Shown here: positions 3,301 to 45,300 of the stretch, piece by piece
How positions within the stretch are numbered: the first letter of the stretch is position 1
Layout of the letters: the number at the start of each line of letters is the position of its first letter
From: Hemicentrotus pulcherrimus
Lineage: Eukaryota; Echinodermata; Echinoidea; Camarodonta; Strongylocentrotidae
NCBI GenBank assembly: GCA_003118195.1
Contig: BEXV01000001.1
Location: forward strand, 417,955 to 481,954
DNA: 64,000 bases
Direction of reading: 5' to 3'
The notes under the pieces: model-generated
What the model saw: only the letters and a program-made list of their open reading frames with translations
Told to the model about the DNA's origin: nothing
The model's database searches: none
Translations under genes and position numbers: made by a program

Positions 3301-6300
3301 GTCATCTTTACGCTTGTAAAACCACTCTAACGATTGTATTCAATATTTTGAAAGTCCGGAGTAAAAACAATTACAGAATGACTTAAAAAAACATTACATT
3401 ATCAAATTTTCAGACTTGTTTTCAGTAATACTCTCCATGCACCCATTCCACAGCTCATCCCGGCATTATTTTCGTTGGTGGAAGTCCTTCTTTTCCTCTC
3501 TTCGTGAGATTCACAGTCTAGAACCCTTCACATTTCGCCTCAAATCTATTTCAGCGAAATGAAAGATAATGATTTTACTGGAGGAGCCTAAGCCTTACTA
3601 TGTATTTTGTATTAAAAAGTACATAAACCCTTAAAAATGCTGGGAGTCACCATTATCATCATTACCATTACCATTACTACCACCACCACCATCACCGTCA
3701 TCATCATTAGTTTTCCTACCACTCGCACTCATTGTCCCAGATTCACACGATCTGAACCATCTACGTTCTTTACAGAGGAAATCCCTTTATGCGACATCAA
3801 AGCAGGCTGGGAATCTTTCGGAGATAAGTGCTACCTTTGGGTATCCGACACCAAGAATATAGCCGATGCTACATCGTACTGTACAATGATGGAGGGTTAC
3901 GTCATATCTATCAACAGTGCCGATGAACAAACCTTTGCTACCTCCATGCAGCTACGCTATGCAAACTTACAGTACTGGATCGGACTCAGTGACCAAGTAT
4001 ATCTATAACAAATTTTGTTAAATAAATGTATCGTAATCTTTTGTTAAAGGCATCAGTTTTATGACACATAATTTTATCTGTGATATTTCCGAAGAACATG
4101 ATTTTGGATACTTTTCTCGTCTGGTAATATTATTACATTCGGCAGCTAGATCAAATTATGCTAGTTCATGTATCAGAAAAGTCTCACATAAAATTAACCT
4201 TTTGCATGTGTTGCAGAACTAATTAATAACGAAAATCCTCTATTACTTCTTACCTCAATGTTCTCACCTACTTCAAAGAAACTATGACATTTAACCGTCT
4301 TACATTGTTTTATTATCTATTACCAATACAGGATAACAAAGGTACTTTCACATGGCAAGATGGAACAGGTACTCAAAGCTACAGTCATTGGGATACAGCT
4401 GAAAATGAACCAGATTCTAGGTAAGTCATTATTTATGTAAGTTATTATCAATATCAATTTTATTTTAATGTTATTATTATCATTGTTATTATTGTTATTA
4501 TTATTGATATTATTATCATTATCAATGGCCCGAAAATTTCTAAGAAAGGCGGGGGGGGGGGTCAATTTTGTCAGCTTAAAAATAGGTCGAATCGGCTACT
4601 AGTCGGTGGACAGACTGGTATGATGTCACTACGACTCAAAGCAGATCGGAAAATTTTACGAGCTGAAAACATTAATAGAGCTACAAGGTCAATGCTGAAA
4701 GGCTTGAAAATGATGAACTTCACGCTGTACTATTCCCCGTTTAAAACTACAAATGTGTATTGTACGAGCTATTTTTTGCTCAGTGATATCTAAAGCCTTG
4801 TCAAAAAACATGAGGACCGATCATGAAATTTCAAAGTCTATCAATATAACGATAAAGGTATCTATTGCAGTAACACATTTGCATACTACATGAAACCAAA
4901 ACCACAATTCGTTGAATGTCTTCTTAATTTTTTGCTTCATTAAATGTAAAAAGCGATGTTATTCATCCAGGTGATCAGATAGTGTATATCGACTTAAACT
5001 TGACTCGTTGACCTAGAAGGATAAATAAAAGCTTAGTGAAAACTATTTTTTAAAAACTGAAAATAAATAGATAGCACTGTAATAGTTTATATTCTAACAA
5101 ACGTGTACTTTATCTCCTTTCTTCTAGCGTGTACCCCGCGTGTGGTATGGTACAGGGGCCCAATCCCGATCTGTGGAGCGTGGATGAGTGTACCGTAAAG
5201 AAACGATTTATCTGCGAAAAACCACAAGGTAAAGCAGACAGTTATCTGTTTCCAATATAATATCGAATGTCATTAAGATGCTGCCATATACAGAGGTGGA
5301 TTCAGGATGCTTGACAAGAAAAAGACTTCTCATTTTGTGGAAAGTTTTTCAAAAGAATGCATAATAGGGAGACCACGCAATGCACATTTGAAATTGAAGT
5401 GGCATACACCACTAGCTTTTTTCTTCATTTTCAAAGGATTAACGTAAAAACAAAGTAACCGAACATTGAAATATACACATGATCAACATAATGACAGTAA
5501 ATACAAATATCAATGTTTAGGGAAATACATTTTACACTAAAAAAATAATAACGTAATACCCGTTAAAATATTTGAGAAGTGATTGGATTATCAACACAAT
5601 TCATAATGTACATGGAGATAAATGAAGTTGAGCGTTGTAAAATATTTCGAATAGAAAATAAATAAAGCAAGAATTGTAAAATCCACAATAAGCTGAAATC
5701 AAATAAACGAAAAATGATATTATTTGTGTCGTTATATATCCTGCATTTGCCTTGTTTTTAACATTTCATCTCAGGTACCTGTGCGGATGGATGGACACTT
5801 CATGGGGGAGAATGCTACCAGTTTAATGTGCTAAGGAGAACATGGACTGATGCTAGCTATTATTGTAGTACTCAAGGAGGATGGCTGGGTACCATTTTTG
5901 AGTACGTACAAACCTAATTTAGTCCGAGTTCTGTTGCTGAACCTTAATACTCCTGTTCATCTGTTCTTCCTCTGTGCTTGTCTCTCCATTTTTTATTATC
6001 GTATTGTCCCTACCTCTACCTTATTACATTTTTCCTCTCTTTGTTGATGACCATCTTTCCTATGATTATCCTGTTTCTTCTCTCCATCTCTCCTCCTCTG
6101 TATTAAAACAATCTAATATCTGGTTTACATTGGTACATCCATTCACCCATCTAGGCTGTGTCGTCTTCTGTTCTGGTCTTCTTCTTTGTCCTTTGTCATG
6201 CAATTTTATTATTAATTGAAATTATTTACAATTTGTGTTAAATGCCTATGCATACTTGCTGCTTTATATTAGATTTTAGATAGATATAATTCTGAATTGA

Positions 6301-9300
6301 TTTTAGATAGATATATAGTAACAACTAGAGCACGACTTTTTATGTTTATTCATTATTCATTATCATGACCAATAATTTATTAATTTAATTAACTGAATTG
6401 ACGCTCCTAATATTTAGCACCCATTTACCAGCACGTACGTGATAAATGGATCTTTGTATGAACGCAGCAAAAATGTTCATCTTGTGTAGTGTTGGGGGGG
6501 TGGTGATTGCGCGTGTGGGTTTATGATTTACAGGTGTTTATATGTCAAATCTACTCATTAATGTTTATGAACCAAAAGACGTGACCAAGTACAAACCAGG
6601 GGCGCCAGAGTCATTTTGTAGGCAAACACCAAAAGATTACCGTAACACTGTACCAACTTACATCTCTTTTAAAGAGCATATATTATGTCAGGAAACGTCT
6701 CGAACTGTGTGCTCTGTTTACCATCAGGTAATTACTTTCCTATCTCATTATTTTCCTTTCATTGTAGTGGTGCAGAAAATACTTTCATTGCCGCAAACAT
6801 GGGTCGTCTCCAAGATGAAAATATTGACAGCATGTGGATAGGATATTCAGGTAGGTGTTAATCTATTATCGTGATCGTATAATGCGTAATTTACGTCAAT
6901 AATGCAATATATCAATTAGAGTATATATTTTGTTAAAACGTTATTCCTTTAAAAAATGTCGAAGTGTCGAAGAATGTCTTAAAAGTCGTTTACGTGAGTG
7001 CTAGATTAAGATTCTTGTTTCGATGAGTTTTGTTATAAACAAACATTGCTTAAGTTATGACTTTGCTTTTAAGCACCCTTTTGCATCAAATGTTCATTTA
7101 TCTATTTGATGAGAAAATATTTTCATCTACGAATAAATTTCTTGGGTGATATCGTCCTGAAAACATAGAATTAACTCAGCTTGTCCATCTAAACAAACAC
7201 AGTGAGACCGAGAATTTGTGGAGTAGACCCCCGAAACCACTAGAAGGCTGTAGATGACTGAAAACTGAAAAGATACCTAATGACAAGTGTCACCTGAATA
7301 GGTTTTGATACGTGTTTTTGTAAATACTTGGGAATTTGGGTTAGCATTAATCTACTATTTCAGGTTAAGTATATTAAGCACCCCGTGCTCTTGGTGGATA
7401 CGTTGTGCACGTTTATTCTCTGCACTATTGTCATTGATATTATCATTAATAATATTTCATTAGCATCATTGTTACAATTTCATTCTATCAATATTATTAT
7501 TATTATTATTATTATTATCATTATTATTGTCAGGAAATGTAAACCTTTTATCTTCTCTAGATTATATCAATGATGGCGAATGGGCGTGGGTGCATGAGAC
7601 CAGTTCTACCTATACCAATTGGCCACAACAGCCCACTAATACTTATGCTCAGGCAGACTGTGCCTATCTCGATACAGGTATATATCAACAATTAATATGC
7701 AATCCTAAACGTGAACCAATAACCTAAACATAGTTTAAAACAGCTAAAATGAATAAAGTATAGTATAGTCTACTCACAAGTGGCTTTCTTGTTGATTCAA
7801 TTTTCAATATTTACTTAAAGAAATAATATTCGAAGCTCCCATATTTACTATAGTGTGACGAAATGGAGCCCCTAAAATTCGGAGCAAAAATACAATTTGG
7901 TGATTAGTACATATTTTCGCTATTGAAGTAAGGGATTTGAGACGCCAACAAATAGTCAAACTAAGAGCTTTAAATATTTCATCTACGAAGATATCTTGCA
8001 GTTTCATAATTTACTTTACAGTGTCATCAATTGTGTTAATTCCTCGATATTTAGTGCACTGATGATCACCCATTGTACAGTATAGAGGTCATAGATCATT
8101 AAGGTTTATCAAGGGCGAAAAAGAGGACAAGTAGGTGTGCGGTTGAGTGTGTGTATGTGTGTGTGTGTTCCTGAGTGTGTGCGTGCGTATGTATAACAGC
8201 TCTAAATTACCATTTGAGTTAATATTCTTATGGAAATTGAAACATTAAATTAAGGGGTATGAAATAAAAGCGATCGGTTAAAGACGATCGCATTCACACC
8301 ACTAAAGGTACTTCATAATTATGTCATTTTGTATCATAAACGCCCATTTGGTTTTTTTCGTTTGTTCTTTTTGAAGCTGACAGAACAGGAGCATGGAACC
8401 AAATGCTATGCACTCTATTGGCTGGATTTTTCTGCAAGATCAAGGCTGGTAAGAATAAAACTGGTTATAAATTGATTCGTAATTACCATTGACATCAAAT
8501 TTTTTTCTAAGAATAATTTTTTTCTCCAAGTGAATCGGCTGTCAATTGATAGTAAATCGTATGGAGTCACCCCAGTGCTCACAGGATGCAGGCGCAGGGT
8601 TGGACCATAATTTGGCGACAAATATTAAACCCCAAAATAACAACAACAATAGAGGAGTGTGAGGTAGGGCGAGGGCAATGAATTTATGATTTATTTATTG
8701 TTACGTGAAATCCAATAATCTGGTATTTAAAATGTATATTTCATTATTACAGAAAGGGTTCTAAGATCTGAAGGATGATGTAAGGCAATATTACTAATAC
8801 ATTCTGTTGCTAAATCCTGTTATTTTATTTCTGTTTTAGGATCTACCGTGACACCAGTGACAGCCCCAGAGAGTGAGTAATAATTACATAGTTTAAATCT
8901 TCCAAGAACTTTATTGTTAAATCTCTATGACACTTTAGATTGATCGATAAAGATGTGAGGAGATAATTTATCTAACACGAATAAATATTATTAAAAATAT
9001 TTCATCAAAAGGGGTGAGAAAAAAAATATCCCGACTTTATGAGCAACAGTTTAAAAAACAAAGTTTTATCTTTAAAGGACAAGTCCACTCGAAAAATAAC
9101 TTGCTTTCAATAAAAGCAGAAAAATCATACAAACCAATCAAAAAAAGTTTGAGCAAAATTGGATAACTAATAAGAAAGTTATGAATTTTTGAAAAAGTAT
9201 TTAAAACTATAAAACAGTGAGATTCACAACACAAATTGAATAGATGGTTATCAGTATGTGACGTCATGTCCTCACAACTTATCAATTGCTGTACATAGTT

Positions 9301-12149
9301 TAATCCCATTAATTTCCCTTTTTATCCCCCACAACTAGAATTCCCCATGCCTTTGCCCAGGTTATATGATTTGTATCATATTGCGTGCATGACATTTCTC
9401 AAAAACGTTTATGAATTTGGAAGAATTTATACTATTTTCTGAATATTGTATTTCATAATTATTGATATTAATATAAATAGTTTATCAAAATTCATTTTTG
9501 TTCATGATTTAACTGGACAAAAATTACTCTTTATTTGTGCATCCACACAAACACATATTACTAACAATCTAACTTGGATGCTGGTGTGAAGAAATAGGAT
9601 TCTTAGGGTGAAAATAGGAAATTTATATTATTAATATACAGAAAATAATTAGTGGATAGTGAGGACCATACGTCACAGACTCATGAGTGAGTTGCCAATT
9701 TGTGTAGTGATTTTCAAAGTTTTTCATGTCATTAAAAATTCATAACTTTCTTATTAGTTATCCGATTTTGCTCAAACTTGTTTTGATTAGTTTGTCTGAT
9801 TTTTCTGGTTCTAAAAGTAAGTTATTTTTGGAGTGGACTTGGGCTTTAAAGATAACGATGAATGATGATACTGGTGACCCTTTAATGTTTTAATCTTCAG
9901 AGGTTGGATCATGTGAGCGTGGTTGGGGTCTGTATGATGAATGGTGTTACTACTCTCCCGCTGTCGAGAAGACCTTCACAGAAGCAGAAGCCGAATGTGC
10001 TGCTTTGTTTTCGGGTTCACATCTGGCCAGTATCCATTCCATCGGAGAGCAATCCTTCATCACAGGTAAGAAATCATTATTATCTGATTATAAATGTTAC
10101 ATATCATGACCGAGGAGATTTCTTAGAAAAGAAAAGTAAAGATTAAAATAAATTGAGTAATCTATTTTTATCTGATACTACTGTATTATAGAATTATAGA
10201 AACCATACACGTTTTTAGATTGATGACACAGATCGATCGATAACTATCCGTTTACAGAAAGACTGTATTACATCAACGCTTGGACATGGATTGGTCTTAC
10301 AGATGTAGATGAAGAAGGTACCTGGAAATGGACTGATGGAACTAACGTAAGTTAGCATTGTTTAATGTTGTTTACCCTTCGTACATCTCTCCCTATCATT
10401 GAGAAAAGAAAAACAAAGGTTTAAAATGGCAACTGTAAAGAAAGCGTCTTATCTCGAATACCAAGAAATGTCATAAAAGTATTAGGTACTCGTCGCAATA
10501 ATTAGTTTGAAATATACCAGGTATTTTTTTGCTGTCCAAAGAATAATGAATTCATTACGTTATATTTTCAATGAAATATTGCATTACAAATGGCAACAAG
10601 GTTTATTGGTAAATTTTCAACAAATTGTATTGTTTTTTTTTCTGAAAATTTTGTAAAAGACAAACAAAAAATGCATATAAAACAATGTTATTGTCATTTT
10701 TTTCAAATTTAGAATTTAGATAACAGTTTAAACCAAATAAAGCTATTTTGACTTTTCTCCGTCTTCTCATCTCCCCTACATTACCACCACCTCTCTCTCT
10801 GACTTGTTTTCCTCTTCGTTTCCGCTACAATGTTTCCCTTTCCCGCTATAATATCTTTCCCGCCAATCACCCTTCCCGCCAATACTTCTCGTCCAATTCT
10901 TTGCTTTCCGTACGCTCCTTCTATGGCTTTCATATAGTTTGATTACATAAACTGGACCCCTGGCGAGCCCAGCAATAGTTATAGCAACGAAGACTGTGTC
11001 CACTTAGACGACTACTTTTATAAGATTGGAACGTGGAATGATGTCAAATGCAACAATCTTTACAGATTTATTTGCAAAATGCCAAAGTGTAAGTAGAAGC
11101 CGAGTCACCCTCAGCTGCAAAAAGCATCGTCACGCCAAACTGTTATGCACAATAAAAGTAAATCTCTCGTAAAAAGCGGGGGATTAAGAATTATCATGAA
11201 GGGTTGCCATTAATGCAACATGGCTTCCAAAACGCAAACATGTGAGGAAACAACAAGAAGAAAAGCGAATTATGAATATATCACCAAACCGACAGCTAAA
11301 GAACAGTCAGTAATTTTGTCCCATGTTTGCATCTGGGTGACTCCAAAACTAATTCGTGAGAGACGTGGTAGGAGGTGAGGAGGCGGAGAATAAAACTTAG
11401 CGAAAAAGAATTGCAGCAAATTATTATTGAATTAACTTGAGCGATGCATTACTTCTTTATGAAGACTCAAATTGCGCCTGGTTACAGGACAACCTCTCAG
11501 AATTTGTCTCCATGCCATGTTTTCCGCCTTCTCGTAAAATTAGTACAATTACTGGAATTGGGCCGCTGGTGAACCAAACAATTTCGGCAACGAAGATTGT
11601 GTGCATCTTGGATATTTTGACGACCATCAGATAGGCTTGTGGAACGACAAAGAGTGTCACGAAACTAACAGATATATCTGCAAAATGCCGAAGTGTAAGT
11701 TATCATCCAAGGGCAAAGAAAGAAGCGCCCAAATATTGAATTTTATAATACCTTTTCATCACTTTTAATGTATCAGATTAAGATCACCTGTACGGAAAAT
11801 TAACGAAAGTGATATATTCAGTTGATATCCGATATATGACACTAAACTTATTGCTTGTTCATCTGGGCGAAAGTGTCAATCAGTCGTTCTTTTTCTTTAT
11901 TTTGTTTGACAATTAAAATTGACCTTAATCTGAAAGTGAAATTGAATGCGTTCGTTTAACTCCCAACAGATGACACTGCTCCTGTCACCCAGTCTCCGGC
12001 TATTACACGTAAGTTGTGAAGAAAAAAACATATAAGTAGAAGTAGCATTAGTGGATGCATCAACCATAATTTATTAGTAATAGTAGTAGTATTTAAGGTA
12101 GTTGTAGCAGTTGTTTTAGCAGCAGCAGCAGCAGTAGTTGTAGTAGTAA

Positions 12150-12223: not shown

Positions 12224-15200
12224 CCATTAACCGTAGTATAGATGCTTGTTTTTTTGTTTTGTTTTTTTTTAAATTGTCTATGGTTAAATTAGAATATGCT
12301 TATATACATTAAAAGGGATAACTGATTTCTTGTTTAAGACCTCTCACGCCTTCAAAGTACATGATTATTGCTCTTATTCTTATTTATGTAATTTCTAGTG
12401 CCCTTTAAGCCCTAACATTGCTATGAAGGTAAATTTAGATCCCTTAAGGTGTATTTAGATTAAATACGATCATACCAATTCAGCTCCACTTTCCAAAAAG
12501 AATAAATCCGTAAATGCCATGGAAAAAGAAAATTGTTCGAATAGGATTCAAACATTACGACTTGATCATTGGTGGAAACTAATACATGTATTCGACTCTC
12601 ATTATGACTTCCAATATGGATTGATATATATGGCCTGGTAAAATGTGTATGTTGATATGCAGTCAAAGTGAAGTCGGATCTTAAGCGTGATTAATTAATT
12701 AATTGGAATACAGAGCAATATTGTAATATTTGGTTCTAATAGCTGACAACAATGAGTAATTTCTCACGTGCACTACATAATCTTATGTTACTATTTCTAA
12801 TTTCATTTCATTTCTTTAATTTCTAATTTGTTTTTCAAATATATGGTTTTGTAATTTTGGTTGTTATTTGCTCCTGCCCTCTATTTCAACTTAAACTTAC
12901 TTAAACAGGTGAGCAAATCATTTTTCCCCTTACACTTGCATACCGAGTGTTGTAATTAGCTCAATGTTATTGGTATTTCTATTATTATGATCATTATCAT
13001 TATTGCAATGACGAAATCGTTATCATTATTAGTATTGATATCATTATTAGAAGAAGTATTTTTTATTATCATAATTAATAATATTATTATCATTATTGGT
13101 TTATTATCATTTGTTCCTTCTTCCCCAGTTCCTCCTAGTGGTCGCTGTGGTAGTGGTTGGGTATACGATTCTGGTAGTAATAACTGCTTCAAATATTCGA
13201 CCAGTGGACTGACCTGGCCCATGGCAAATGACCAATGCCACTACGAGGGAGGCTATCTGACTAGTATTACTAACCAAGCTGAATCGGAATTCCATCGCAG
13301 TAAGTATAAAGAAAACGTAGAATTCTGATAAAGATGAGAAAAAGGTTTTAAGCTTTCTCATTCTGTTGACGTCAGTTTGGAAGGTTACCATAGTAAAAAT
13401 GTCACCTGAAAGGGATTTGTCTTCAAATGTCATCATTTTCGAAATGTGAAATACGTCCAATTTTGTGCGCAGTGATTTTTAACAAGACCGATTCAATTTT
13501 TGTCAAAGGTTTCATTTCAAAATTGCCCTTGAATTGATCTCTCGAAAGTCTTTATGATAGTTTATATTATACATTTAGAGATATTACATCTAGTCTGAAC
13601 GGACAATACACAAATTATGAGGAGACCTGCGATAAAAATATGTTGAAGAAATTGATTGATAGATTCGATTATCTACCAAGGAGCTGAGTATTGACAAATG
13701 ACTCAAGTTTCCTCATTTACGAAGTCTATTTTGTAGATTTATAAATATTACACCATCTCATCTAGATCTTAAATTACAGCAGGAATGGAGTAACCTATTG
13801 GAGCATCTTCACTTATTTAAAACAAAATGTTTTAATCAGTTTGCGTGTTCAGGTCTAGTGGACTTATCACCAGACTGTGGATGACAAGGTGATTTATGTC
13901 CTTTGGCAAGAAATTAATCATCGTTTGCCTCTTTTAACGAGATGAGTATACCTAGTTTGGCAGCTTGGCCCGTTCCAGGGTAGTACTGTGTAGGCCTTGT
14001 AAAATCTGCCATGAGAAAATCTTTGGCTAAGTATTTTCCCATCATAAATTCAGCAATTAATATTCTCGTTATTATATTGTAACCGACAGTGTCTGTACTC
14101 TACTACAAATTGAATTACAACATATGGTCATTTTGGATCGGTCTTCATGATACTAATATGGAGGATGGTTATGTTTGGAGTGATGGCGCCCCCGTCTCAT
14201 ATCTCAACTGGGACTCAGGTATGATCATTATTATTATTACTATTATTATTGCTATCATCTTTATTATTACTGTAATATCATTGTAGATGTATCGTGGTCT
14301 AGATGTTAAATCACTTGACTCCCAATTCATGGGTTGAGGGTTCGAAACCCAGCCCGGCACTAATGTCCTTTGGAAAGACATTGATCCACATGGGCCACTC
14401 TCCATCCAGGTGTAGATGGGTACCTGGCAAATGCTGAGGTAATGATGTTTTCAAGGTCTTCAGGAAGAACAACGTTGATGATGATGACGCTTCTTAGGTT
14501 GAATTAATACTATCATCGTTAATTGAATTATACTATTTGTACAGCGCCCTGTCTGTAAAAGAGACTTGATAGTTCTGGAGCCATCAGTGGATATACCAAA
14601 TACCTGTGTGTATACATGATTGTATAGGTGGTCGGCGTTATGATTGCAATATTGATCTGCATGTGACATCATAAGTTATACTTACGAGTAGAGTGGTTCT
14701 ATATTAGCAGATGCACATTCTGAGTTCAAACGAATCAATAATCATTCAGGGTTACTTAATTAAGTGAATTTTAGTAATTTCTTTTCATACAAACTTTAAA
14801 AGGTCGTGGTTTGAGCCACAGCACACAAGGTTGCAGTGCTTCTAACCAACTGGGTGGGATACATAACTCATGTAGTTGGATGCTCAGTACATTCCTATGC
14901 GATGATCACCTGGCTTTATAAAGAGTAGAGTTGGAGAGTATGATGTAAGCATGATAAAAGGTAATGTCGTAATTGAATCCATGACTGGGTGATAAAACAC
15001 TGTAAAACTCTCTGGAAAGGTGGAACATGACAAAATTTATAATTATCATTAATATTTTATATTTTGTTTCATGGGAACCAAACGGTGCATAAAACGCTGC
15101 AGATCACGTTGAGCTTCTATGTCCTGATGGATTATTATTGTACGATTCGTATACCGATGACATTACGTTGAGATCATTATAATAATTATCATTATAACTA

Positions 15201-18200
15201 TTTTATTATTGTTTTCAGGGGAGCCCAACGATGCTTATACCGGTGAAGATTACGTTGAGATCCTATGTGCTAATGGAAAATGGAATGACCTGCATGGAGA
15301 TACATCAATACGTTACTCCTGCAAGAGAAACAGTACGTGATTTTTTAAAAAACACATCTAATACAATCATCTTCGTTGGCTATCTCCATGTATATGTTAT
15401 TGTTACTTCTCCGTTTACCAAATGTGTTGCTTGGTTTAGGGTCAAACATTTTGAGGTTGCCAATGGAAACTTCGTTCTCAAAACTTTCACGTCGTTTGTA
15501 TTGTTTGATGTAGCATTTCATAACAAAACACAAATAGCTGGTTACGATAACTTTATCACGGTTATCATTCATAAGTTATCAGTTTTGAATTAACACTAAG
15601 TAACTAATTTAAGATTAAGTATTTTATTAAGGTTGCCGATTAAATGACAAGATCACCGTCATTTCCATTATGTTCCTATTTATTTTAATATTTTAAGAGC
15701 ATCGTCTTCACTGACTAGGCCCCCCCCCCTCCACCCCCACGCCATGCACAGGCCAAGAAGTGATGTATGGCATAGTAGACATTGTGACGTCATTTTACTT
15801 ATTACATTACATCCAGGTTTCATTACGAATCAGTTCAAAGTGTTCCCCAACAGCCGCTTGGACACGCCGAACTCGATCACCTTCTCCAACGTATGGCCGG
15901 AGGAATGTGCTGCTAGCTGCTACAGTGCTGGTGGAGAAGACTGCAGGTCTTTTAATTACTACCGCAAGACACGGGAATGTTCGCTGCTATCTATCGATCA
16001 GTACTCAGGCTCCGCAGATCTGGTGCCAGAGAATGAAGATCCTTACGATTACTATGAACGAGGTAGGTCTGTCGAGTATTCATAGCGAAGATCCTGGTTT
16101 ATATGAAATAATTCATCTGCTGAAAGCCAGAAGGGAGTTAACACTGTGCCAAATGATATGAGTGAATGACATTCTGACTGTCGAAAGTCGTTCAGATATG
16201 ATGCGGCAGTAAAACAATAATACTGCCACGGACTTATTTTTATGTCAACTGCGCGTAACAAAAGGTCCTGCGTCGTTATCCGGCGTCATATCTGAACAAG
16301 ACCATATTGATGCTCGATGAAAAGCAAGTCATGTATATTATAAAGTTAACATTAAATTAATAATTGGAATAAGCTGCCACTTAGTATTCGTAATTTAACT
16401 GCCCTTCATGACTTGCTCTAAAGACCCAAAGTTGCTCTAAAAACCCATCTCTTTCAAAACAGTGCTATTTAATGATGTCAATGTAGCGTAATAATTTGTG
16501 TAGTTTTAGTTTAGTTTATTTTAGTTAAGAAAGTTATATTTTTGTGATGGTAATATATACAGCGCCATGAGCGTCAGAGCCGGGCGGATACCGGCGCTAT
16601 ATAAATATCCATATTATTATTATACTACGAGTCCTTTTAGATACTGAGCATGTAAAATTCCGGCTCCAATTTCTTTTCCAAAGGAAAAAACTATGCTCAC
16701 CCGCAGATATTTAATTTATGAAGAATTTGTCAAAATATAAAAATCTAATCTCTTGAAGCGATTGACGAAAACTGATAGAACCAAAATCCAAATGGGCATG
16801 CTCAGTTGTAATTCACGGACTTTAACATCAGGTAAGAGAAATATCATTTTATTGCACAAAACATGACCCCACCCTACGGCTTCCAAATTATTCAATGAGT
16901 TTCATCAGTAGGCATCTTCCTTCATGAACTTCCATTTTAAGTATAATTTTTAGTAGACTGATTGTTTAAGAGTATTGCATCATGCATTTTTACTTTTACA
17001 CTGAATTTGTCATCCATTATTATAAGCATTTCCTTATCAATTATTCAGACTTCACAGCTCCAGCCATCCAAGTGCCAACAACCATCGGTCCCTCGTATGG
17101 GTGTGGTAAGGGCGAGACTGGCTACCGCAGCTACTGCTATACCTTGGTCACTTCAGTGTCAACCTTCGATGGCATGCAGAGTATATGTGAACTCCGCAGC
17201 GCTAACCTGGTCTCCATCGCTGATGCTAGCGAAATGAACTTTGTCATTAGCTTGATGCAGACTGGTAAGAAAAAAATAAAACGAAAAAAAAAGAATCTTG
17301 CTAAGATGTTCAGGAGATGTTAAAGATAAGGCTTGAGTTCTTGTCACTACATTGGTGGAGAATCAATCAAAAAGGTTGATTACGGAACACATAAGAAAAT
17401 ATGAAATCAGCGACTGTCAAGATTGGAAATGATCAAAATAAAAATAAAGTGACCCAACCTTGCTGTAAATAATAATAATATTTAATGTTTATATAGTGCT
17501 TAATACAAATGTCTCTAAGCCCTTTACAAATATACTATTGTGGCAAGTAAGTTTGATATTTTGTTTATTATTTTGAAGAGCAATCCTGATCAGGGAAGAT
17601 ATCTAGTTTGATATTTTTTTCAAAGTGACGTACAAAAACTTGAGAAAACTTACAAATTATTCGTCATCTTTACGAAAACTCAAACGTATTTATCCTCGAT
17701 TAGTAGGGCGGATGCTTGCTTGGAAGTATAAGTAAGCAAGACCTGTGCAGACTCCGTCTCCAAATTAAGTGAGTTTAGCTCATATGTGAACAAATCAAAC
17801 AAAAGATCGTGGGTTTGTATTCAAGTTCAACCCAGGCGGATGATTGAAGCCTGCGTTGTTGTATTGATGTGCCCCTCCTCCAGTTTCAGACGCAGGCTTT
17901 GTTACAGTTGAAAACACTCCTCCCCTCGCATAGGATGTTAACTAAAGGCCACATGCAGAGGACAGTCTCCACCTTTGTACGTTAAGAACCCACTGCACTA
18001 TTTGTATAATAGTAGGTCCACCTGCACACCCCATTCAGTTATACCGGGAGCAGAGACTCAGAGCGTGCCAGTGATACAATTCGCTTTTCGCCTCCCAGGC
18101 GGACAAATACTTAATAATAACAATAATAATAATGGTTTTACAACTCTTGTGGATTTATGTATTACCTTTATAATCATTTTGATTATTACGAGTGGAAGAT

Positions 18201-27200: not shown

Positions 27201-30200
27201 TCACATATTGGTATTAATTTGACCAAACGTTTCGATGACTAATTAAAACAATCAATGTCAATGTTGAAATGCTTTTAATGATAGATGGTCAGACGGCTCT
27301 TCATATACTTACGAGAACTGGGACAGAGGAGAGCCTAACAATCACAATGGGGAAGAATTGTGCGGAGAAATATATCGCTATAATGGTAAGAGGAGATTTA
27401 ATTATAAAGTATAACTTTTTTAAACAATGAATATAGATGTAAGAAATATAATCTGCCGTCTAAAAGTCATGTTTCTTCATATTTTGGAACCGTTCTTTTC
27501 ATTGTGGAAAAAAGACAGCTGCATGGGGTATGTAACTAAAGATGGAAGAATAGCTTGGCAAACACTATTATGCAGGAAGAACTATTAGGAGAACATAGAA
27601 GGGCAGAGCAATTAACATATTGACTTATAACATCAAGCAATTAAAATAGCAATTAAGGTTAGATCGTAGCCGGTATGCAAACAAGTGAAAGAGTCGTTTC
27701 GTTTATAAATACATAATAATGTTCTCTTCTTTCTATCTCTTCATCTATAGTTCTTTCGTTCTTCTTTTTTTTGTTCTCTCTATATCCTGTCCCTTCTTGT
27801 CTCCTTCCCCTCATAAGCTCTTCTTTAGAATTCTCTCTTTCTTTTTTTGACATTACCCCCTAAGTCTCTCCCTTCTTGAAGGTCTATCAACGAAATAAAC
27901 AATCCCTTGAATGATTGATAGAATGTATAATGGATGTATCTACCTTAAAATGCACTGAATGGTACTCAAATAAGAAAAGGTTAATCAAGTAGTAGCCTTA
28001 TATCTATCTGATGGGTAATTAATATCAATAAACAATAACATTTTGTCAAAACTGTTGCATTGATAAGGTGCTATTGGTGAGTTGCTGTGGCTGATGACTA
28101 TGCATACAAGGAGAGGAATGAGCATTGATGATAAAACGAAAGAGACAGGGAAATGAAATATAATCTGGAGAGGGAAGAGAACGAGAAAGAAGAGGAGAGG
28201 GGGATAGAACACGCTCGTCCTGTACTACATGGTCGCTCTTCTTATTCTGTCGTGTTCACATCTTAAATGTATTAATAAACACTGCAAATCTTGTCCAGGT
28301 CTGCAGGAAAATGGCGTATGGAATGATGCAGCGTGTGGGGTCAATACCCCGTTCATTTGCAAGAGGATGGAAGATTCTGTTAACCCAGTCACAAATGCAC
28401 CAACCGAAACCCCTACCGGTGGATGTAGTGATGACTATTTCAAATACTTTAATAGGTAAGGCAAAGGCGATCTCAAAAATTTTTGAGAAATAAACTGCAA
28501 TACCCTAATGTATGTCTCAATGAAATCATGTTCGGGTTATGAGTTGTATCTGTAAGTAATATATGATACTGTTATTCTTTTCAACAACAAAAATCTAACG
28601 AACGAAACACTACAATATCTATATAACAATATAATTCACGTTTATGTAATACTAGCCTACTCTGAGAGTATGGAACATTACCGTCAAAAAAGCAACCAAA
28701 AAAAAAAAAACATTTAGCGAAGGGTAACTCTCCCCCATTCCTTTGACTAAACTTCCGATATATACTCTCTATTGAATCGACAGGTGTTACAGGATGGGAG
28801 GTTATGAAGAGACCGATCGATACAGCTGGCATGATGCTAGAACCTTGTGACAGGGTGAAGGAGGAAATCTAGTCGGTATCCATAGCCAACAAGTTCAGTG
28901 TAAGTTGTGTTATACCTCGGCCACAACCCGAAATCGATCCTAAACCTATTCTTAACCAGCCGATTACTAAACCATTAGGGGTATTATAAATTATTTTCGG
29001 TCTGTTTTCAGTCTGATATCGGTCTCGGCGGTGTGTCCGGGGTTTAAGTATTAATTCTCAGTCCCCCTGCCAACAGGCCAAACCGAATCCAGATTGTCTC
29101 CTAACCAACTTTTTTTGTTTTAATAATTATTTTAAAAACAAAATCGGCCTCGCTATAGCGTGACTGAGTTATAGCCCGTGTCCGAATTATATAGCTCGGT
29201 GCATGAATAGAATAAAGAGAATTTAATGTAGGGTCTATAATTTTTTCTTAATTTTTTTTTCTTCATAATTAACGCATTTGGTAAGGCGGCAAATTTACCG
29301 GATTCACTGGGGGAAAATAACTATATGCATGGAATGATTCAATGTTTTAAGGAGTAATTATGAAAAGTTAAAGCTATTAGTACTTACTTTTGTAACGTAT
29401 GTCTTTGCCATTATGGCTCTTAGATCATAATCATCAGTACATTTGTTTAAGTTTGATATTTAGCAAGATGGTGAACGGAGAGTATAACAAATCACTAAAA
29501 ATTGCGTAAGATAGAGAATATCTCAATTAAATTTCTTGTTCAAATTTGTTATTTAAAAAAGGAAATGCTATGAAATTGTGAATAAGATGCAATAGGCGAT
29601 TTCGTCTTATACTTTCTTACAGTGAGTTTGGAGCTATCCATCTTTGTTTATTTGTTAATGAGCATAATAGGTATGATGGGGTTACCAAAGTTCGCGGAGA
29701 TTTTTTGAAAATATTAGGAAATGTGATATTCGATCCATGATGTCTTATCTTCTACACAAATTTATTGAGTTCAATTGTTAACAAATGGACGGCAGGTTTT
29801 TGACTACAAATTGGTGCAAATAAAAATGTTATCGACGAAGAATTCTGGAGATTTCGCGATTTAAAACTTGGATGTCGAATTGGCATGCGCTGCAATTGAC
29901 GAAAAAGTAATTAATGACTTATGAATTAATTGCATAATTTGCACGGAAAAAAATATCACTAAATTAGTTGGTATTAATTTTTACTCACAATTTTGATGAC
30001 ATCTCCTCTCGATATTAAAATTCTTAGACCTCTGTTGGTAACTTCAAAAGACCGCAAAATTTGCCAATATTTCGTCAATATTTTCACAATTTCACACCAA
30101 ATCTATAAAAATTTCATCTTCAGGTTATTTTAGATTACTTTTTCCATTAGTGGTAGCGGATTTGTATATATTTTTTATAGATAATGAACTAGGGTCACGC

Positions 30201-33200
30201 GCTTACTATGGTCACACCGATAAACAGAAAGTCGTTGATATGTCATGATAGCGTCATTAGAATTATTCATGTTCTATCACATATTAAATCTTGGTTTTAT
30301 TATATTTTTGACTTTAGCACTACTAACATCTATGCTCTTGGACATAACGGGAGATGTTTGGATCGGGTTTTCGGATTCAGGATCGAATGGTCAGTATCAC
30401 TGGACCGATGGAAAACCAGCAGTGTACACGAACTGGTTTCCCGGTGAACCGACTGGACATATTTCCCTACCTGGCGCAGTAAGTACTACAAGGAAAATTC
30501 AACGGTAGTTTTTTTTTTAAAGATCAGATTTAAAACAAATGAACGATATCGCAGCGAAAATGGCAAATATCAAACTCAATAGCAAATACTTTCGAGAAAT
30601 TAAATAAAGGGAAATGCCAATACCCCATTGTATATCCCATAGCAACCATGTTCGGATTAAGCTTAACATTGTATTCATGTTCGCACATTATAAGAAAATC
30701 ATGGACAATGCAATTGACAGTGGCTAAGATTAATTTTGCGAAAGTCTATGTGATCGTGTCATGAGGACATGTCCTCAGAGTTTTTTCTTACCACAATTTG
30801 CCCAAAAGCCGTATATTTTACCTTAAAATGTGGAAAGTGTTTCATTTGTGTTCCTCCATCATGTCTAAGATACACGTTACTATTTCAACTAAATTGATTT
30901 GTTTTTATGAATGTTCCTTTTCACATCTGTTTTGATGTCATTCTACATTCCTATATTTTTGTTTCCACCAGCCTGTTCGCGACTGCGTTGAGATGTTGAA
31001 CCAACAGTGGTATGCTGGCATGTGGAGTGACTCGGAATGCTCTAATGCTATCGGATACATGTGCGAGAAAGACTTGGGTATGTTTCCAGTTTGAACATTT
31101 TTCCTTTTACTTAATTTATCTAAACGCAAATATTGTAGCAGGTTCTTCCATATTAAAGAAAGAATATACAAACGGTGATACCGTAAACTTCCATTAGTAA
31201 AGCTATTCTCGAGGACTATAACCTTAAATTGCACATCCTCGAAGACAGCTAAACTCGAATGTTCACAACCCACGAGCGAGTATTATACCTTTGCTTCTCA
31301 GTCATGCAAAGCTAAACAAAGAGAACGTGATTTTTTTCCTCAAAAATATAAAGCAGTTCTCGATTACCCTTTCTTCCGTTATAAACGAAGTATCTACCAG
31401 TGGTAGCGTCGTCAAGTGGTCTAAATACTTGACTGGAAATACAAAGATCGTGTGTTCTAGCCCCCGGAGCGGCACTAGTGCCCTGGCAAATGCATCATAG
31501 TCTGTATCTGTCATTCACCATCAAGGTGTTAAATGGATAGCGTTTATAAGAAACTCCCTAAATGGTGCGAGAACGAAATTCGGTAGCCTAGCTAGAGCCG
31601 ATGCGTCATGAACACCTGATACGATAGATAAGAACGCTAAAAACAAATTCAGTATCGCTAACATACACTGTCTCATGAATAGAAGGGAGGGGAGCAGCTA
31701 CGGCGTCCACCTAATTTTGTATTCCCTATCCTAAATACCTTGAGGGAACAAGGGGATATTCTTTTTTCTTGCTTCACGACCACGAGGTCAGCATAACAAT
31801 TTGTTTGTGTACCTGGTATTTTTTAGATCCTAGTGCTTCTGATAATCCACCTGAGGACAAATTTTGTGATGATGTTTCTTAATACAAATACGGCGACTCC
31901 TGCTTCAAACTTGACACGACCAGGCGTACCTACACGGGTGCACAAGAATTATGCAAGAATGATGGCGGCAACCTGGCTAGCATCACAGATGCTCATTACG
32001 AAGCTTTTGTAGAGTATCTGCTGTACTCAAGGGGAGTATCAGATGCTTGGATCGGCATGACGAATGTGGTAAAATGTCTTGATATTGTCAAATGAAATAA
32101 AGTTTGATTGATATGAAATGGTTATTGGTTAAAGATGTGTGTTAGTCCAGCTGTCTCACTTTACCTATAAACTGATCGTTAAGTTAGATTTCATTTCCGA
32201 GAGGTAAATAAGAATTGACTGATAAACGTCTGTAAATAGCTCTCTACTTTTCTTCTCTATTTATCCTTTTGTTCTCTTGTTTGGGGCAATACATTTCCAT
32301 CTAATATAAGTCAACTTTTTACACTACAAAAAAGGATAATACGAATTGTCTGCGAAATTCAATCTAAAACTTACACTTACCCTCTATTTCAAGAATTGAA
32401 ACTCTTAACCAACAACAACATTTTTCATTTATAATAGTATATTCAACCATCTCTCGAAATGATTTTAAATTGTTTTTTATTATAATCCTAATAAACAAAT
32501 CTGTCCCATTAAAATAATCTGTATGAAACATTTATATCCCAGACAGTACAGTATAGTTTCAACAAAATGTTTACATCATTGATTCAGGGCAGTGCCAATG
32601 CTGTTCATTTTGCATTTACTTTATGCATACGATGTCACTCTTATATGACACGTCAAAAACCATGTCAGTCACTGACGCAGTCCTGAGTTATCAAAATATA
32701 AAGCCTATTGTAAAGAGGGAATTCATCTACATTTAAACCGCCTCTGATCAGGCACTCGGCACTGGAACTTAATCGGATCGGATGTATTTCATTTAGAAAG
32801 AACTAATCCTACCTTATCCCTCCACCCCCTTCCAGGATGGAAAATACCAGTGGGCCGACGGCTGGCCAGTACTCGTCTCATTTTGGGGTGACGGAGAACC
32901 AAGTCAGAATGACGGAGAAGGATGCGTCATTCTTACTGATGCACCCTCTTGGGATGACACCAGCTGCGCCGATCTTCATCCTACAATGTGCCGAACCACC
33001 AACGGTTAGTAACCACTTTTGGATGTTAAGCATGTCCGTAGCTAGTAATAAGCGCATTAACAGTTGTCTAACGCGATCGCAAAGACTTTCAAAACATAAT
33101 TGTAAGACCATCGTTGTAATGATAGCATAATTTCAAATGGTGACGGAAACACGTCTTCCAGCTCTTCTTAAAGCCCCAGTCCCATACAAAGCAGGACCAA

Positions 33201-39507: not shown

Positions 39508-40130
39508 CTACTCGTTCTTCTCCTCCTCTCCGGTGTTGTCAGTGGAGCCTTTGGTGGAGCGATAATGACATATGTTGACTACTCCGTTGTAGGTGCTTTC
39601 TTTAGTCTGGCTGAGAGCACCAAACCGACCCTTGCTGGCCACCCCTACATCAACTGGTTTCTCTGTGCCCATAATGACTGCCTGTGCTTGCCCATTGGCC
39701 GCGAACTCCAGCTTGGTGAAGCTGTTGCTAGATGCGGTATTGGTTGGAGCAACGACCTCTTCAACTGTAGTGACATCGTGTTCCGGTGTTGGCGGGAAGC
39801 TCACATTCTCATCTTCTGCCTTAGGACTGTCGATAGGTGTCGCTGTTTCCTTGTCATTTTCATCATCATCATCATTCGGCTGCTCGAGCACCTCGTCGTT
39901 GGAGAACCCATTCTCAACATGACCGTTGCTGCCAAAGACCTCATCCTCACCCACGAACTCCTGATCATCAAGGACTTCGCACGGTGAAGGAAGACCACTT
40001 GAGGTGTCCTCGAAGCTGTAGAATGCATTGAAAGGATAGCCGTAGCTCTCAGCCTCTTCGGACATCGCACGGCGACCCATCTTTTTCCGGTAGTTCATCA
40101 GCTTTTTCAGACATGTTTTTTTATCTCGTC
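39508..40130 (-). CDS. Unassigned terminal exon: acidic, PEST-like hydrophilic tail
   Basis: Open on the minus strand from an acceptor (CCAACTCAG, exon starts at 40130, phase 1) to the stop at 39508-39510, about 206 residues. It opens with a basic KKTCLKKLMNYRKKMGRR, continues YPFNAFYSFEDTSSGLPSP and becomes acidic (NDDDDENDKE, IDSPKAEDEN, PPTPEHDVTTVEE). GC content is clearly above the flanks. I do not recognise the protein. No phase-1 donor that would splice to it is evident in the decarboxylase catalytic exons, except after 45971-46037, which would truncate the enzyme. It could be an alternative C-terminus, or the last exon of another gene with upstream exons I could not find. The plus-strand frame over it (39451-39987) is judged a shadow. 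Confidence 0.5.
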
Positions 40131-40838
40131 CTGAGTTGGAAATAACGAGAATTTAGAAAGGGTTTTCGAAAAATTAATGATTACTTCTTCTACAAGGAAT
40201 TATCCGATAGCACATGATCAGGTTCCTCGTAAGCATACATCGTTGTTTAGATGCACTGCAGCTATCCTTGATCAGGTTGGTGACAATTTGTCACAATATC
40301 ACAAATTACTGACCATTCACAATTTTTCTAATGATGTTAAAGAGTTACATTAAACTGTGAAATACATATATCTGTACATATTTATATGATTGTTATCTTT
40401 CCATTGCAAAAAAAAATCTCAATCATTAGAAGGTTTCACGAAACAAGCAAAATTTAATAACTTTCACAGTTATGTGCCATCAGATAAGTGAATTCTTAAA
40501 TCGTGACTAAGTTCATGTGCAGACTATGTCTACATATTATTTATTCTGAATTAGGTATATTTTGAAGGGGGGAGGTACATGTAGTTGAGTGCGAATAACG
40601 GCTCATATAAAAATAACCAAAAACGTAAACGTAGACACATTTAAATTGATTAAAAAATATATGTATACTTTCTGGTTGCGTATTTTCAACAACAACGTTG
40701 ATTTGACAGGATTTCATTAAAGTGTACTGTCTTTTGAATACAAAAATGCAAATTAAATCATATCTCCTTAAATGACGCGTCAAAAATATCACAAGCATAA
40801 ACTAATTGATAAATTGGAGAGGTAGATGTAGACGTTAA

Positions 40839-41905: not shown

Positions 41906-42349
41906 TCATGCAAGCACAGCTTCCAGCTTGCCTGGTTTGAAGATCGGTGGTCCATTTGCCCTCTCCTCCATATTCATTCCTTCCATCTTCTTAGCCAAAC
42001 TTTCGGTCTCCTCGTCTTCCTCCTTCGTGTCCTCATTGTTGTTTTTGATGTAGATTTCTTTCCGGTTCTTGAGGACATGGGTGGCAGCCGGTGCACCGGT
42101 AAGGTTGAGGGCACCGGGCCAGGATGACATCCGCGTGGGCACGTTGGCCACGAATTCTGTAGAAACGAAGATTTCGCGCGCCAGGGACTGGATGAGACGC
42201 CAGTCCTCCAAGATGTCATCTTCGGTGGTCTCTGTTGACGTCACAGTGAAACGAATGACGTAAAGACCCTTGATGGAGGCGGGTACAACGTAGATCTTGC
42301 CAGAGAAATTGAGACGGCGTAGAAGCTCCTGCGTCAGTCCATTCGGTCC
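41906..42349 (-). CDS. Decarboxylase terminal exon
   Basis: Acceptor TAAACAG, then [44 protein letters not shown] and a charged tail ([19 protein letters not shown] ... KLEAVLA), stop TGA at 41906-41908. The tail past the catalytic fold is about 85 residues, much shorter than the extension of vertebrate HDC. Confidence 0.92.
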   Translation of the reverse strand, partial: GPNGLTQELLRRLNFSGKIYVVPASIKGLYVIRFTVTSTETTEDDILEDWRLIQSLAREIFVSTEFVANVPTRMSSWPGALNLTGAPAATHVLKNRKEIYIKNNNEDTKEEDEETESLAKKMEGMNMEERANGPPIFKPGKLEAVLA

Positions 42350-45300
42350 CTGTTTATGAATCATATGCACTCACAGCGTTATTGCCACTGAATGTACTAT
42401 TCTTTTGGGGGTTGGAAAATCATGCCGTAGAGACGTTGTCTCTGGAAATGTGGACATTTTAAAAACCAATACCAGGACCCCGTCTTACAAAGAGTTACGA
42501 TTGATCCAAATCAATCGTAAGTCCTCCAATTAATCGCAAGTTTGCAGTCTCCTATCTCTTATGTACATAGTTACGATTGATATCAATTGCACATAAGTTA
42601 CGATTGATATCAACTATTTGTAAGATGGGGCCCAGGTGACATAATAAGGCCTATCTGAAAGATCACTTCACTCCATATATTCTGTTAGGAGCAAGATAGA
42701 AGGGCGTTAACTCATATACTTTCCTGCAGAGTCGTTCTTCTAGCTACAAACAGACGTAATTACACCAAAATGAGATATTAACTAAATCATACCACTTGTG
42801 TTCTTATCTTGGCTGTATTGGTATTCTTGTTATCGTGCTTTTCTTCAAGGAGATAAACTAAATATTTTTAATTGTGTTATCCTTCCATCTAATTTTATGG
42901 TATCATTTTGTAGACTTTTGTTTCACGTTTTGTGGCAACACAATTCTAAATTCAAATTCAACTTAACTTACCTTCAGTCTAAAGACAATCAAACCAAGGA
43001 TTCTCTCGGCTGGTATTTCAAATGCAGCATCATTTAAAACTAGTTTCTCAAAGTAATGACCTAGGCGAACGCCCTGCAAATGAAGGATATCAAGATATAA
43101 TTATTTTAAACAAATATTATACCACCACTCTTACAATCCATCGTTATCTTGACTGCCAGGTATATTGTTCTCCCACAACATAATGCGTCAGATATTCTAT
43201 AAAAACGGGGTTTTGAGAGTTCCATGTTTCTAAATTTCAATAAGTGCAGCGATTGGGCAAAACTTTAGACTCGTGATCAGACCTGCACTTTAATAAATTG
43301 TTATTGTTGGTAGATATTTATTTATTTGTTACATTTTAATGTAATTTTACGTATATATGTGATTTACGTATATCCTTTTGATTTCACAATAACTCAATCC
43401 TAACCTTTAAAACCCATACCATTACAAATGCGAGGTACATGTATCTTACCCGACGGACATGCTCCTGAAGTTTCTTGACACCAAATGAGCGTAGCACAAA
43501 CCAGAGCTTGAGGGAGCGGAAGCGTCGACTGAGTGGGATCTGCCAGTGCTGTAGATCGCAAAACCAATGTAGATAGTGATACAGAGATCAGGTAGTAATC
43601 ATGCTAGTTGAATCTTATTCAATTCAATTCAATTCATTTATTTGTTCAACCATCAAAATAAATATACAATCAAAATAAGTTACATCAAGAGTTTAGAAGA
43701 ACACAACGATTTTTGGTGACCCCGGAGAAAGCAGGTCTTCTAAAAAAGGGCCACCAAATTGAATTACATAACAAGATCAAAAATACTTATACAACCAAAA
43801 CAAATCATCATCGAACATTAATATAAACAAGGAAGAAAGATAAGTACACTTCTGGCAGCAGCACCAAAAATCTATATCTACATGTGTATATAAGAGCATT
43901 AAAAGAAAAGAGTCTAGAAAAAAAAGCGAGAAAAAAGAAGGATGTATATCATTTCGATTTAATTAAATTAACCTTTGCTATGTCACCATACTCAGGGACG
44001 TATTTCACCAGCCTTACTGTTACAAAGAAGACAAGGACATTCGTGATTTCAAAGACAACGTGTCAGTGCTAAGAAAAAAGCCACGATGTTCATTACCACA
44101 TTTAATGATGAATAACAAGTCAATAATCATGAGTTTAGTCGTGAATTGTTTTGATAACGACGACGCTTTGAATGCTAATGATAGTGTCGATTTATGTGTA
44201 AGTTCAGTGTATTTTGCTATGTAAGTTTAACACAAATTCACCACAGTTGTTTTAGCATACTCTATGATGCAGGAATAAGGTATACCAGAGCTTGGATCAG
44301 ACCAAAAAACAAAGAAATGCCGACTGTGATGTAGTAGTTCGTTAATTTATCTTTTGATCTGGTAACATTCGGGATAGCAAGATAAAATGGACATGCACAT
44401 ATACATGTAGTACTCACCATGAAATCAACGGCAGATCCCTGTTTATCATGGCGGAGGTAAAGCGGCTTGACGCAGAATGCCTTCTCTAGTGTCTTGCTGT
44501 CACGTATCCTAAAATGAGACATTCAAATGAGGGCAGTAATTGAATTTATTTGCAAGAGGAGGCCATTTATATATAGTGAATATGGTACATTGTCTAGAAC
44601 AGACGTACCTGAGTACTAGTGAAACGTAGAATGCCTATGGGGAGCACGAACATGCAACTGAGTTATTACACACCAGCATAACTTTAATTTGCAAAATTGT
44701 AGTGCGGTATATGCTGTGGCAATTTCCTACACTAGGCGAATTTCCAATTTCAACCTTGGGTACAAAACCAAACCCCACCTAATAGCCAATTTTGACCCGA
44801 ACCGATACCCTAACATTAACTCTTTATCTCTAACGAAACAGAGAGCAATAGTTTTCGCCTGAACATTCGGAACATTCGTCAGGCAGCGAGTGATTTTTTT
44901 GTTTGTTTTAGATCGTAAAAAACATTGCTCTCCCAAACAAAATATACCTGGTAATTTATATCACAGAGAAATGAACCTTCTAGTCATATCCTTACAGACT
45001 GACTGATTTGTGATGATATATGAATATAAACACTTTACAAAATTAAGATAGCTCTATTACTCATTTTCGGAATGAAGCATCCTTTAATATAATTACATCC
45101 TTTCGCAAATTGAGGGGGGGGGGGTATTTAAAATGGTATTGAATGAAGAATATATATACTAGGTCCATTATTACATATAAGAAAATCAGAACTGGAGCAA
45201 CGGTTTCACGCCTTGTACAGTTAAACACACACATCATTTGCAAGGGGTTCCTGGTGATGCAGGAAAGCAAGAATACGGATAAGGCGGGAAGATGGACAGA

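Follow-up and report, generated by a model that had tools for sequence, protein, structure and literature searches.

A putative mutually exclusive exon pair for the sugar-binding half of one lectin domain in a sea urchin gene of the mannose-receptor family

How recognition widens in animals without antibodies is an open question, and the usual answers are many genes and many alleles. The vertebrate members of the mannose receptor (MRC1) family have N-terminal cysteine-rich and fibronectin type II domains, and the family carries many C-type lectin domains (CTLDs) in a row. A CTLD that binds sugar in a calcium-dependent manner has EPN or QPD, a Glu before Asp-Cys, and WND. The insect immune gene serpin-1 has interchangeable exons of about 44 to 50 residues, each of which supplies the loop that sets specificity to a common scaffold, as the available portions of PMC10513286 describe. 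Tropomyosin (PMC1431707) and OGDH exons 4a/4b (PMC7969005), also known to us from portions of the papers, each have a duplicated exon pair, a long AG-free and pyrimidine-rich acceptor, and a frame that punishes errors. The Hemicentrotus pulcherrimus gene described here would resemble serpin-1 in its interchangeable loop exons, and it resembles tropomyosin and OGDH in the features just named. Among the papers listed in searches of the open-access literature on C-type lectins and alternative or mutually exclusive exons, we found none in which a CTLD loop is swapped by such exons.

The window is the whole stretch of DNA that was analyzed, 64,000 nucleotides of one contig (positions 417955 to 481954). 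Its positions 2391 to 36111 match, exon by exon, the Strongylocentrotus purpuratus protein P0021 ("macrophage mannose receptor 1"), with 35 hits of at least 75% identity. Summed over 30 of the 35 hits, 1468 of 1563 residues are identical; the sum leaves out exon X2, a hit containing a 4-residue gap, and three others that extend into intron sequence. By these matches, the window belongs to a strongylocentrotid urchin near to, but distinct from, the S. purpuratus reference. Pfam gives 14 Lectin_C stretches each in P0021 and in P0020 of Lytechinus variegatus, 12 each in P0003 of Lytechinus pictus and P0029 of Diadema, and one PAN domain in each of the four. Modeled with either X1 or X2, the two exons at issue, the window chain is open for 1110 residues over 25 exons and forms a row of C-type lectin domains. 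Positions 35863 to 36111 match P0021 residues 2128 to 2210 at 92%, and encode a predicted C-terminal membrane anchor, with a hydrophobic run judged by eye, and a cytoplasmic tail. By its sequence, the gene is a predicted transmembrane receptor of the mannose-receptor family. Neither the cysteine-rich nor the fibronectin type II domain is in the Pfam results for P0021 and P0020, with the true start of P0021 possibly missing. Therefore, the window gene is a family relative and not a strict MRC1 orthologue. A paralogue lies upstream on the same strand (loci L009 and L010) and is orthologous, by its exons, to L. pictus P0003.

Features of the window gene around the exon pair and its broken counterparts
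Feature	Positions	Strand	Remarks
Exon 4a, first part of lectin domain	9901-10065	+	Phase 1 to 1; P0021 98%
Exon 4b, WIGL part of domain	10258-10346	+	Phase 1 to 0; P0021 100%
AG-free stretch before X1, 77% pyrimidine	10743-10935	+	Function predicted
X1, long-loop exon, EPS version	10938-11088	+	151 nt, phase 0 to 1, AG/GT
X2, long-loop exon, EPN version	11544-11694	+	151 nt, phase 0 to 1, AG/GT
Exon 4d, shared downstream linker	11970-12008	+	Phase 1 to 1
Exon 5a, start of next lectin domain; contains TGA 13210-13212	13129-13299	+	
Broken upstream copy of exon 5c	15045-15131	+	Acceptor AG changed, in-frame TAA; 66/87 bases identical to 15191-15277
Broken upstream copy of last domain's long-loop exon (34850 on)	34564-34668	+	In-frame TGA, acceptor AG kept, similarity stops early

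The domain that carries X1 and X2 is the sixth Lectin_C domain of P0021 by our own count along the sequence; its name in the earlier note, CTLD4, is a count from the window edge. AG/GT borders and joining phases hold in 4a, 4b, X1, X2, 4d, and 5a. Exon 5c ends with a GT donor at 15332; position 15335 is in the same phase and has no GT. In the next lectin domain (14090 to 15332), the usual EDC has its Cys replaced by Tyr, and no Cys follows WND. The proteins of S. purpuratus and L. variegatus likewise read EDY in the domain after the X1/X2 domain. The missing Cys pair suggests the joint loss of one disulphide. The intron before 4a contains, at 9066 to 9855, an inverted repeat whose arms measure 42, 80, and 28 nt and are 82 to 93% complementary; this repeat looks like a small transposon with inverted ends.

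The earlier note described X1 and X2 as intact exons sharing the anchors NEDCVHL and ICKMPK, one with EPS and the other with EPN. We found the coordinates, lengths, phases, and motifs to be as described. Each exon also completes the same CTLD, scoring 88.9 bits (X1) or 82.6 bits (X2) against Pfam Lectin_C over profile positions 2 to 107 of 107. One of three forward frames is open in each, and it is the correct frame. Their DNA alignment scores 40, a value to be compared with at most 15 among 1000 shuffles, and both exons find matches in proteins from other species across the same stretch. Therefore, the likeness of X1 and X2 is not due to chance. Their equal length hides compensating indels, an extra codon before NEDC in X1 and an extra codon after CVHL in X2 in alignment A1, with the gaps placed differently in a second alignment. 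X1 and X2 are thus homologous, adjacent exons of the same phase that each complete the same domain, as the members of a mutually exclusive pair do.

It had also been claimed that exactly one of the two must be chosen. This is too strong. Using both in one transcript does lead to a TGA at 11570 to 11572, and joining 4b to 4d, with only X skipped, leads to the TGA at 13210 to 13212. However, 4b, X, and 4d add up to 279 nt, and a transcript without all three stays in frame, so the frame alone does not compel the choice of exactly one. Both exons might therefore be used without forming a strict pair, either with X1 as a poison or rare exon that tunes expression, or with the 4b-X-4d block skipped to give a shortened receptor. 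The early stop produced by X1 plus X2 would fit the former, and long AG-free acceptors are known in decay-linked exons, for example PTB exon 11 (PMC1431707, in the portions available). The in-frame joint skip fits the latter, and the S. purpuratus model P0009 reads without 4b, X, and 4d together. However, P0009 is not RNA evidence but a gene model in which further joins are irregular. An exon that acted purely as a poison would not have to conserve its protein, yet the lectin sequence of X1 is kept, both in its Pfam score and in its few replacement differences. We consider non-strict use quite improbable. Separately, exon 1a is 17 residues longer in P0009, where it reaches into the intron (1260 to 1310); the window is open there, and this may be an alternative donor.

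The age of the pair and the constraint on it were estimated from synonymous (ps) and replacement (pn) differences. Synonymous differences are saturated, with a ps of 0.80 between X1 and X2, 0.85 between X1 and the paralogue's exon, and 0.90 between X2 and the paralogue's exon, whereas the corresponding pn values are low, at 0.23, 0.20, and 0.23. Seven usable pairs of constitutive exons from the window gene and the paralogue gave ps values of 0.48 to 0.79 and pn values of 0.17 to 0.44; an eighth control pair, 3a, is void (wrong frame), and its row raises the pooled pn of 0.29. The pn between X1 and the paralogue is lower than that of six of the seven pairs. By this comparison of sequences, X1 is no looser than constitutive exons. 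The mismatches at codon positions 1, 2, and 3 are 12, 8, and 28 between X1 and the paralogue, and 19, 10, and 24 between X1 and X2 (49 codons each).

A collapsed or false duplication, which the earlier note had named as a possible refutation, is excluded by a DNA identity of only 67% between X1 and X2 together with the saturated synonymous sites. That saturation also rules out X1 as an allele, a false duplicate, or a recent copy from the neighboring gene; taken with the few replacement differences, it indicates that X1 is not an old relic either. The assembly could still have created X1 as an artefact, by taking in an allele, a false copy, or a misplaced piece of another gene. It is a draft, there are 7713 N in the 10 kb directly upstream of the window, and single nonsense codons at conserved places suggest base errors. 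However, divergence argues against an allele or false copy, X1 is equally far from the neighboring paralogue's exon, there is no N in window positions 1 to 46388, and a search of the 414-Mb assembly with X2 as the query gave no nearer source of X1. An artefact is thus very hard to credit.

The nonsense codons deserve a closer description. Within the window gene there are a TGA in place of a conserved Cys (28848 to 28850) and a TAA in place of a Tyr (31880 to 31882). One exon of the paralogue (L009 9251-9421) contains two stops, and another lectin locus has one (L006 720-950). At the stop sites of these three loci the related proteins have Cys, Tyr, or Phe, and the lectin exons are otherwise intact. 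The stops may be assembly base errors, alleles, or beginning pseudogenes. If the gene is dead in the sequenced animal, the constraint would record the history of the pair and not its present use there. Beyond the gene, on the minus strand, are open reading frames of 214 and 154 codons (39508 to 40152 and 41906 to 42370). They looked like the end of an amino-acid decarboxylase, an identity that Pfam did not support, as it places no family in either frame.

We then compared the pair with the exons of relatives, outside the assembly as proteins only and within it through the neighboring paralogue, which has one copy. X2 is 86% identical to S. purpuratus P0021 and 76% identical to L. variegatus P0020, and a stretch of 15 residues is common to X2 and the proteins of both species. 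Therefore, the X2 type dates back at least to the Strongylocentrotus-Lytechinus split. Among the matches listed, those closest to X1 are L. pictus P0003 (74%) and Diadema P0029 (71%), with no other proteins among them. The single exon of the neighboring paralogue is of the X1 type but has EPN (L009 8440-8587; 96% to L. pictus). A remnant second copy was not detected in the two introns flanking that exon, where scores were 10 to 13 and shuffles reached 15 to 21 (200 each). The proposed check for the same pair in relatives showed X2 in the proteins of S. purpuratus and L. variegatus; protein-level searches found X1 in no protein of this gene among the matches listed. A tree of 12 exon rows of about 50 residues left eight of nine inner branches open, starred none, and did not separate a grouping of X1 with the paralogue from one of X1 with X2.

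X2 differs from S. purpuratus at 7 of 50 residues, compared with 0 of 84 in 4a plus 4b (Fisher p 0.0008); against the gene's other exons, the p value in this comparison is 0.03. The seven changes are at exon residues 13 to 15 and 36 to 41, two clusters just past EPN and WND. There is no excess of change relative to L. variegatus (12/50 versus 14/84 in 4a plus 4b, p 0.37). Fast evolution of X2 is suggestive only.

X1 could also be an ancestral exon that was recently silenced when X2 took over, with decay from EPN to EPS begun and the frame open by inertia. Both the paralogue and Diadema have the X1 type, the annotated exon is X2, and the gene loses other spare exons. Moreover, of 12 homologous exons compared, X1 alone lacks EPN, which counts against the pair and can be read as early decay. 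We simulated neutral change from the paralogue's exon, with 5000 runs at each distance, and scored as passing the runs that stayed stop-free and kept at least 35 of 49 residues. Of these, 45% passed at 0.10 substitutions per site, so X1 may have lost its function recently. However, the share that passed fell to 2.1% when the distance was 0.233 substitutions per site and to 0.1% when it was 0.30. The X2 type is shared by S. purpuratus and L. variegatus, so the decay of a displaced X1 could have begun as early as their split. The low pn between X1 and the paralogue, the strong donor, and the unusually long acceptor stretch that X1 still has also speak against silencing, which we regard as unlikely. 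There is good support for regarding the two exons as real, alternative, and maintained by selection, given the low replacement relative to saturated synonymous change, the intact signals, the broken copies elsewhere in the gene, and the atypical X1 acceptor.

The AG exclusion zone of X1 spans 193 nt. Across the 41 acceptors of the gene that were measured, no other zone exceeds 114 nt and the median is 41 nt; the 77% pyrimidine threshold was chosen after the stretch was seen. AG gaps of at least 193 nt number 2 of 1950 in window positions 1 to 36200, and the other one (224 nt, 5929 to 6152) precedes no exon that we recognized. Branch-point-like yTnAy sites before X1 are at -136, -169, and -187, with none between -15 and -135. 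The nearest such site of exon 3a, at -172, is farther than that of X1, and X2 has one at -85, outside its own 41-nt AG-free zone. In humans, the available portions of PMC1431707 count 838 of 67,334 introns with AG exclusion zones of at least 100 nt, and 68 cassette exons among 235 exons with such zones, where 47 were expected. A long AG-free, pyrimidine-rich acceptor like that of X1 would be expected if an exon is regulated and its branch point lies far away, and suggests that X1 may be such an exon. We infer that X1 is spliced into mRNA.

No device that would enforce the choice emerged from the sequence. The three branch-point-like sites nearest to X2 are at least 263 nt from the X1 donor, distances that rule out steric exclusion, for which the threshold is about 50 nt in the portions of PMC7969005 available. 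Competing intron pairing did not stand out in any of three intron pairs with 40 shuffles each: the values were -125.8 versus a mean of -131.6 (sd 8.3), -70.8 versus -73.6 (4.6), and -96.7 versus -86.7 (6.5), with shuffles of the third reaching -100.6. The most economical mechanism would be regulated competition between the exons, with X1 governed by its pyrimidine stretch.

The long-loop exon includes EPN or EPS, EDC, WND, and the last cysteine. The predicted site of X2 has EPN, EDC, and WND, and that of X1 has EPS with EDC and WND. X1 alone has an NWT sequon, and the paralogue's exon has NNS. Human DCIR has EPS, and the part of PMC3679074 available reports that it binds glycans with fucose and mannose, so a site with EPS is not necessarily dead. 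A ligand switch through EPS versus EPN is plausible.

Built-in controls for the pair are the two broken copies of other long-loop exons within the gene and the neighboring single-copy paralogue. In a comparison with six related proteins, we found three long-loop exon pairs, and only X1/X2 is intact on both sides. The 15045-15131 copy aligns to its live exon with a score of 45 (maximum 18 in 500 shuffles), and the 34564-34668 copy with a score of 48 (maximum 15 in 500 shuffles). Their mismatches at codon positions 1, 2, and 3 are 4, 4, and 5 over 19 codons and 3, 2, and 8 over 23 codons, respectively, and the third-position excess in the latter suggests that it may have served until lately. Thus, the gene has generated spare long-loop exons repeatedly. 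We are evenly divided on whether a mutually exclusive EPN/EPS swap, together with this repeated birth of spare exons, two of them now dead, amounts to an exon-level birth-and-death system that diversifies a pattern-recognition receptor.

We consider it probable that X1 and X2 arose by an ancient duplication and have both been kept by selection as a mutually exclusive pair. In this scenario, the exon for the long-loop, sugar- and calcium-binding half of one CTLD was duplicated long ago. X2 would be the usual exon, as in the annotated relatives, and X1 the regulated one, controlled in a PTB-like manner through its 193-nt pyrimidine stretch and distant branch point. Wrong double or zero inclusion would be discarded as mRNA with a premature stop, so that frame and nonsense-mediated decay would act as proofreading. 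A single receptor would thereby have two exchangeable sites, a mannose type with X2 and, with X1, a site in which the Asn of EPN is replaced by Ser, as in human DCIR. If true, a lectin whose binding half is swapped through splicing would add another route to wider recognition.

Among known systems, the mannose receptor family, represented by P0021 and P0020, shares the row of C-type lectin domains, and the window gene follows P0021 to the C-terminal end. However, the window gene has a second intact long-loop exon for one domain. Human DCIR (CLEC4A) shares EPS in the binding site, and its structure 5b1w is among the matches of both the X1 and the X2 version. In DCIR the domain is fixed, whereas in the window gene EPS would be one of two splice choices. 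OGDH differs in its distant branch point, which lies 25 to 41 nt from the donor of the first exon and imposes steric exclusion (PMC7969005, portions available). In the window gene the long stretch precedes the upstream exon, X1, so that this device cannot apply. Insect serpin-1 differs in its serpin fold, in the terminal position of the exchanged segment, and in its many exons, compared with two versions of an internal lectin exon here (PMC10513286, portions available). On our comparison with the described part of that system, the serpin-1 loop exons are the nearest known principle to the one proposed for X1 and X2.
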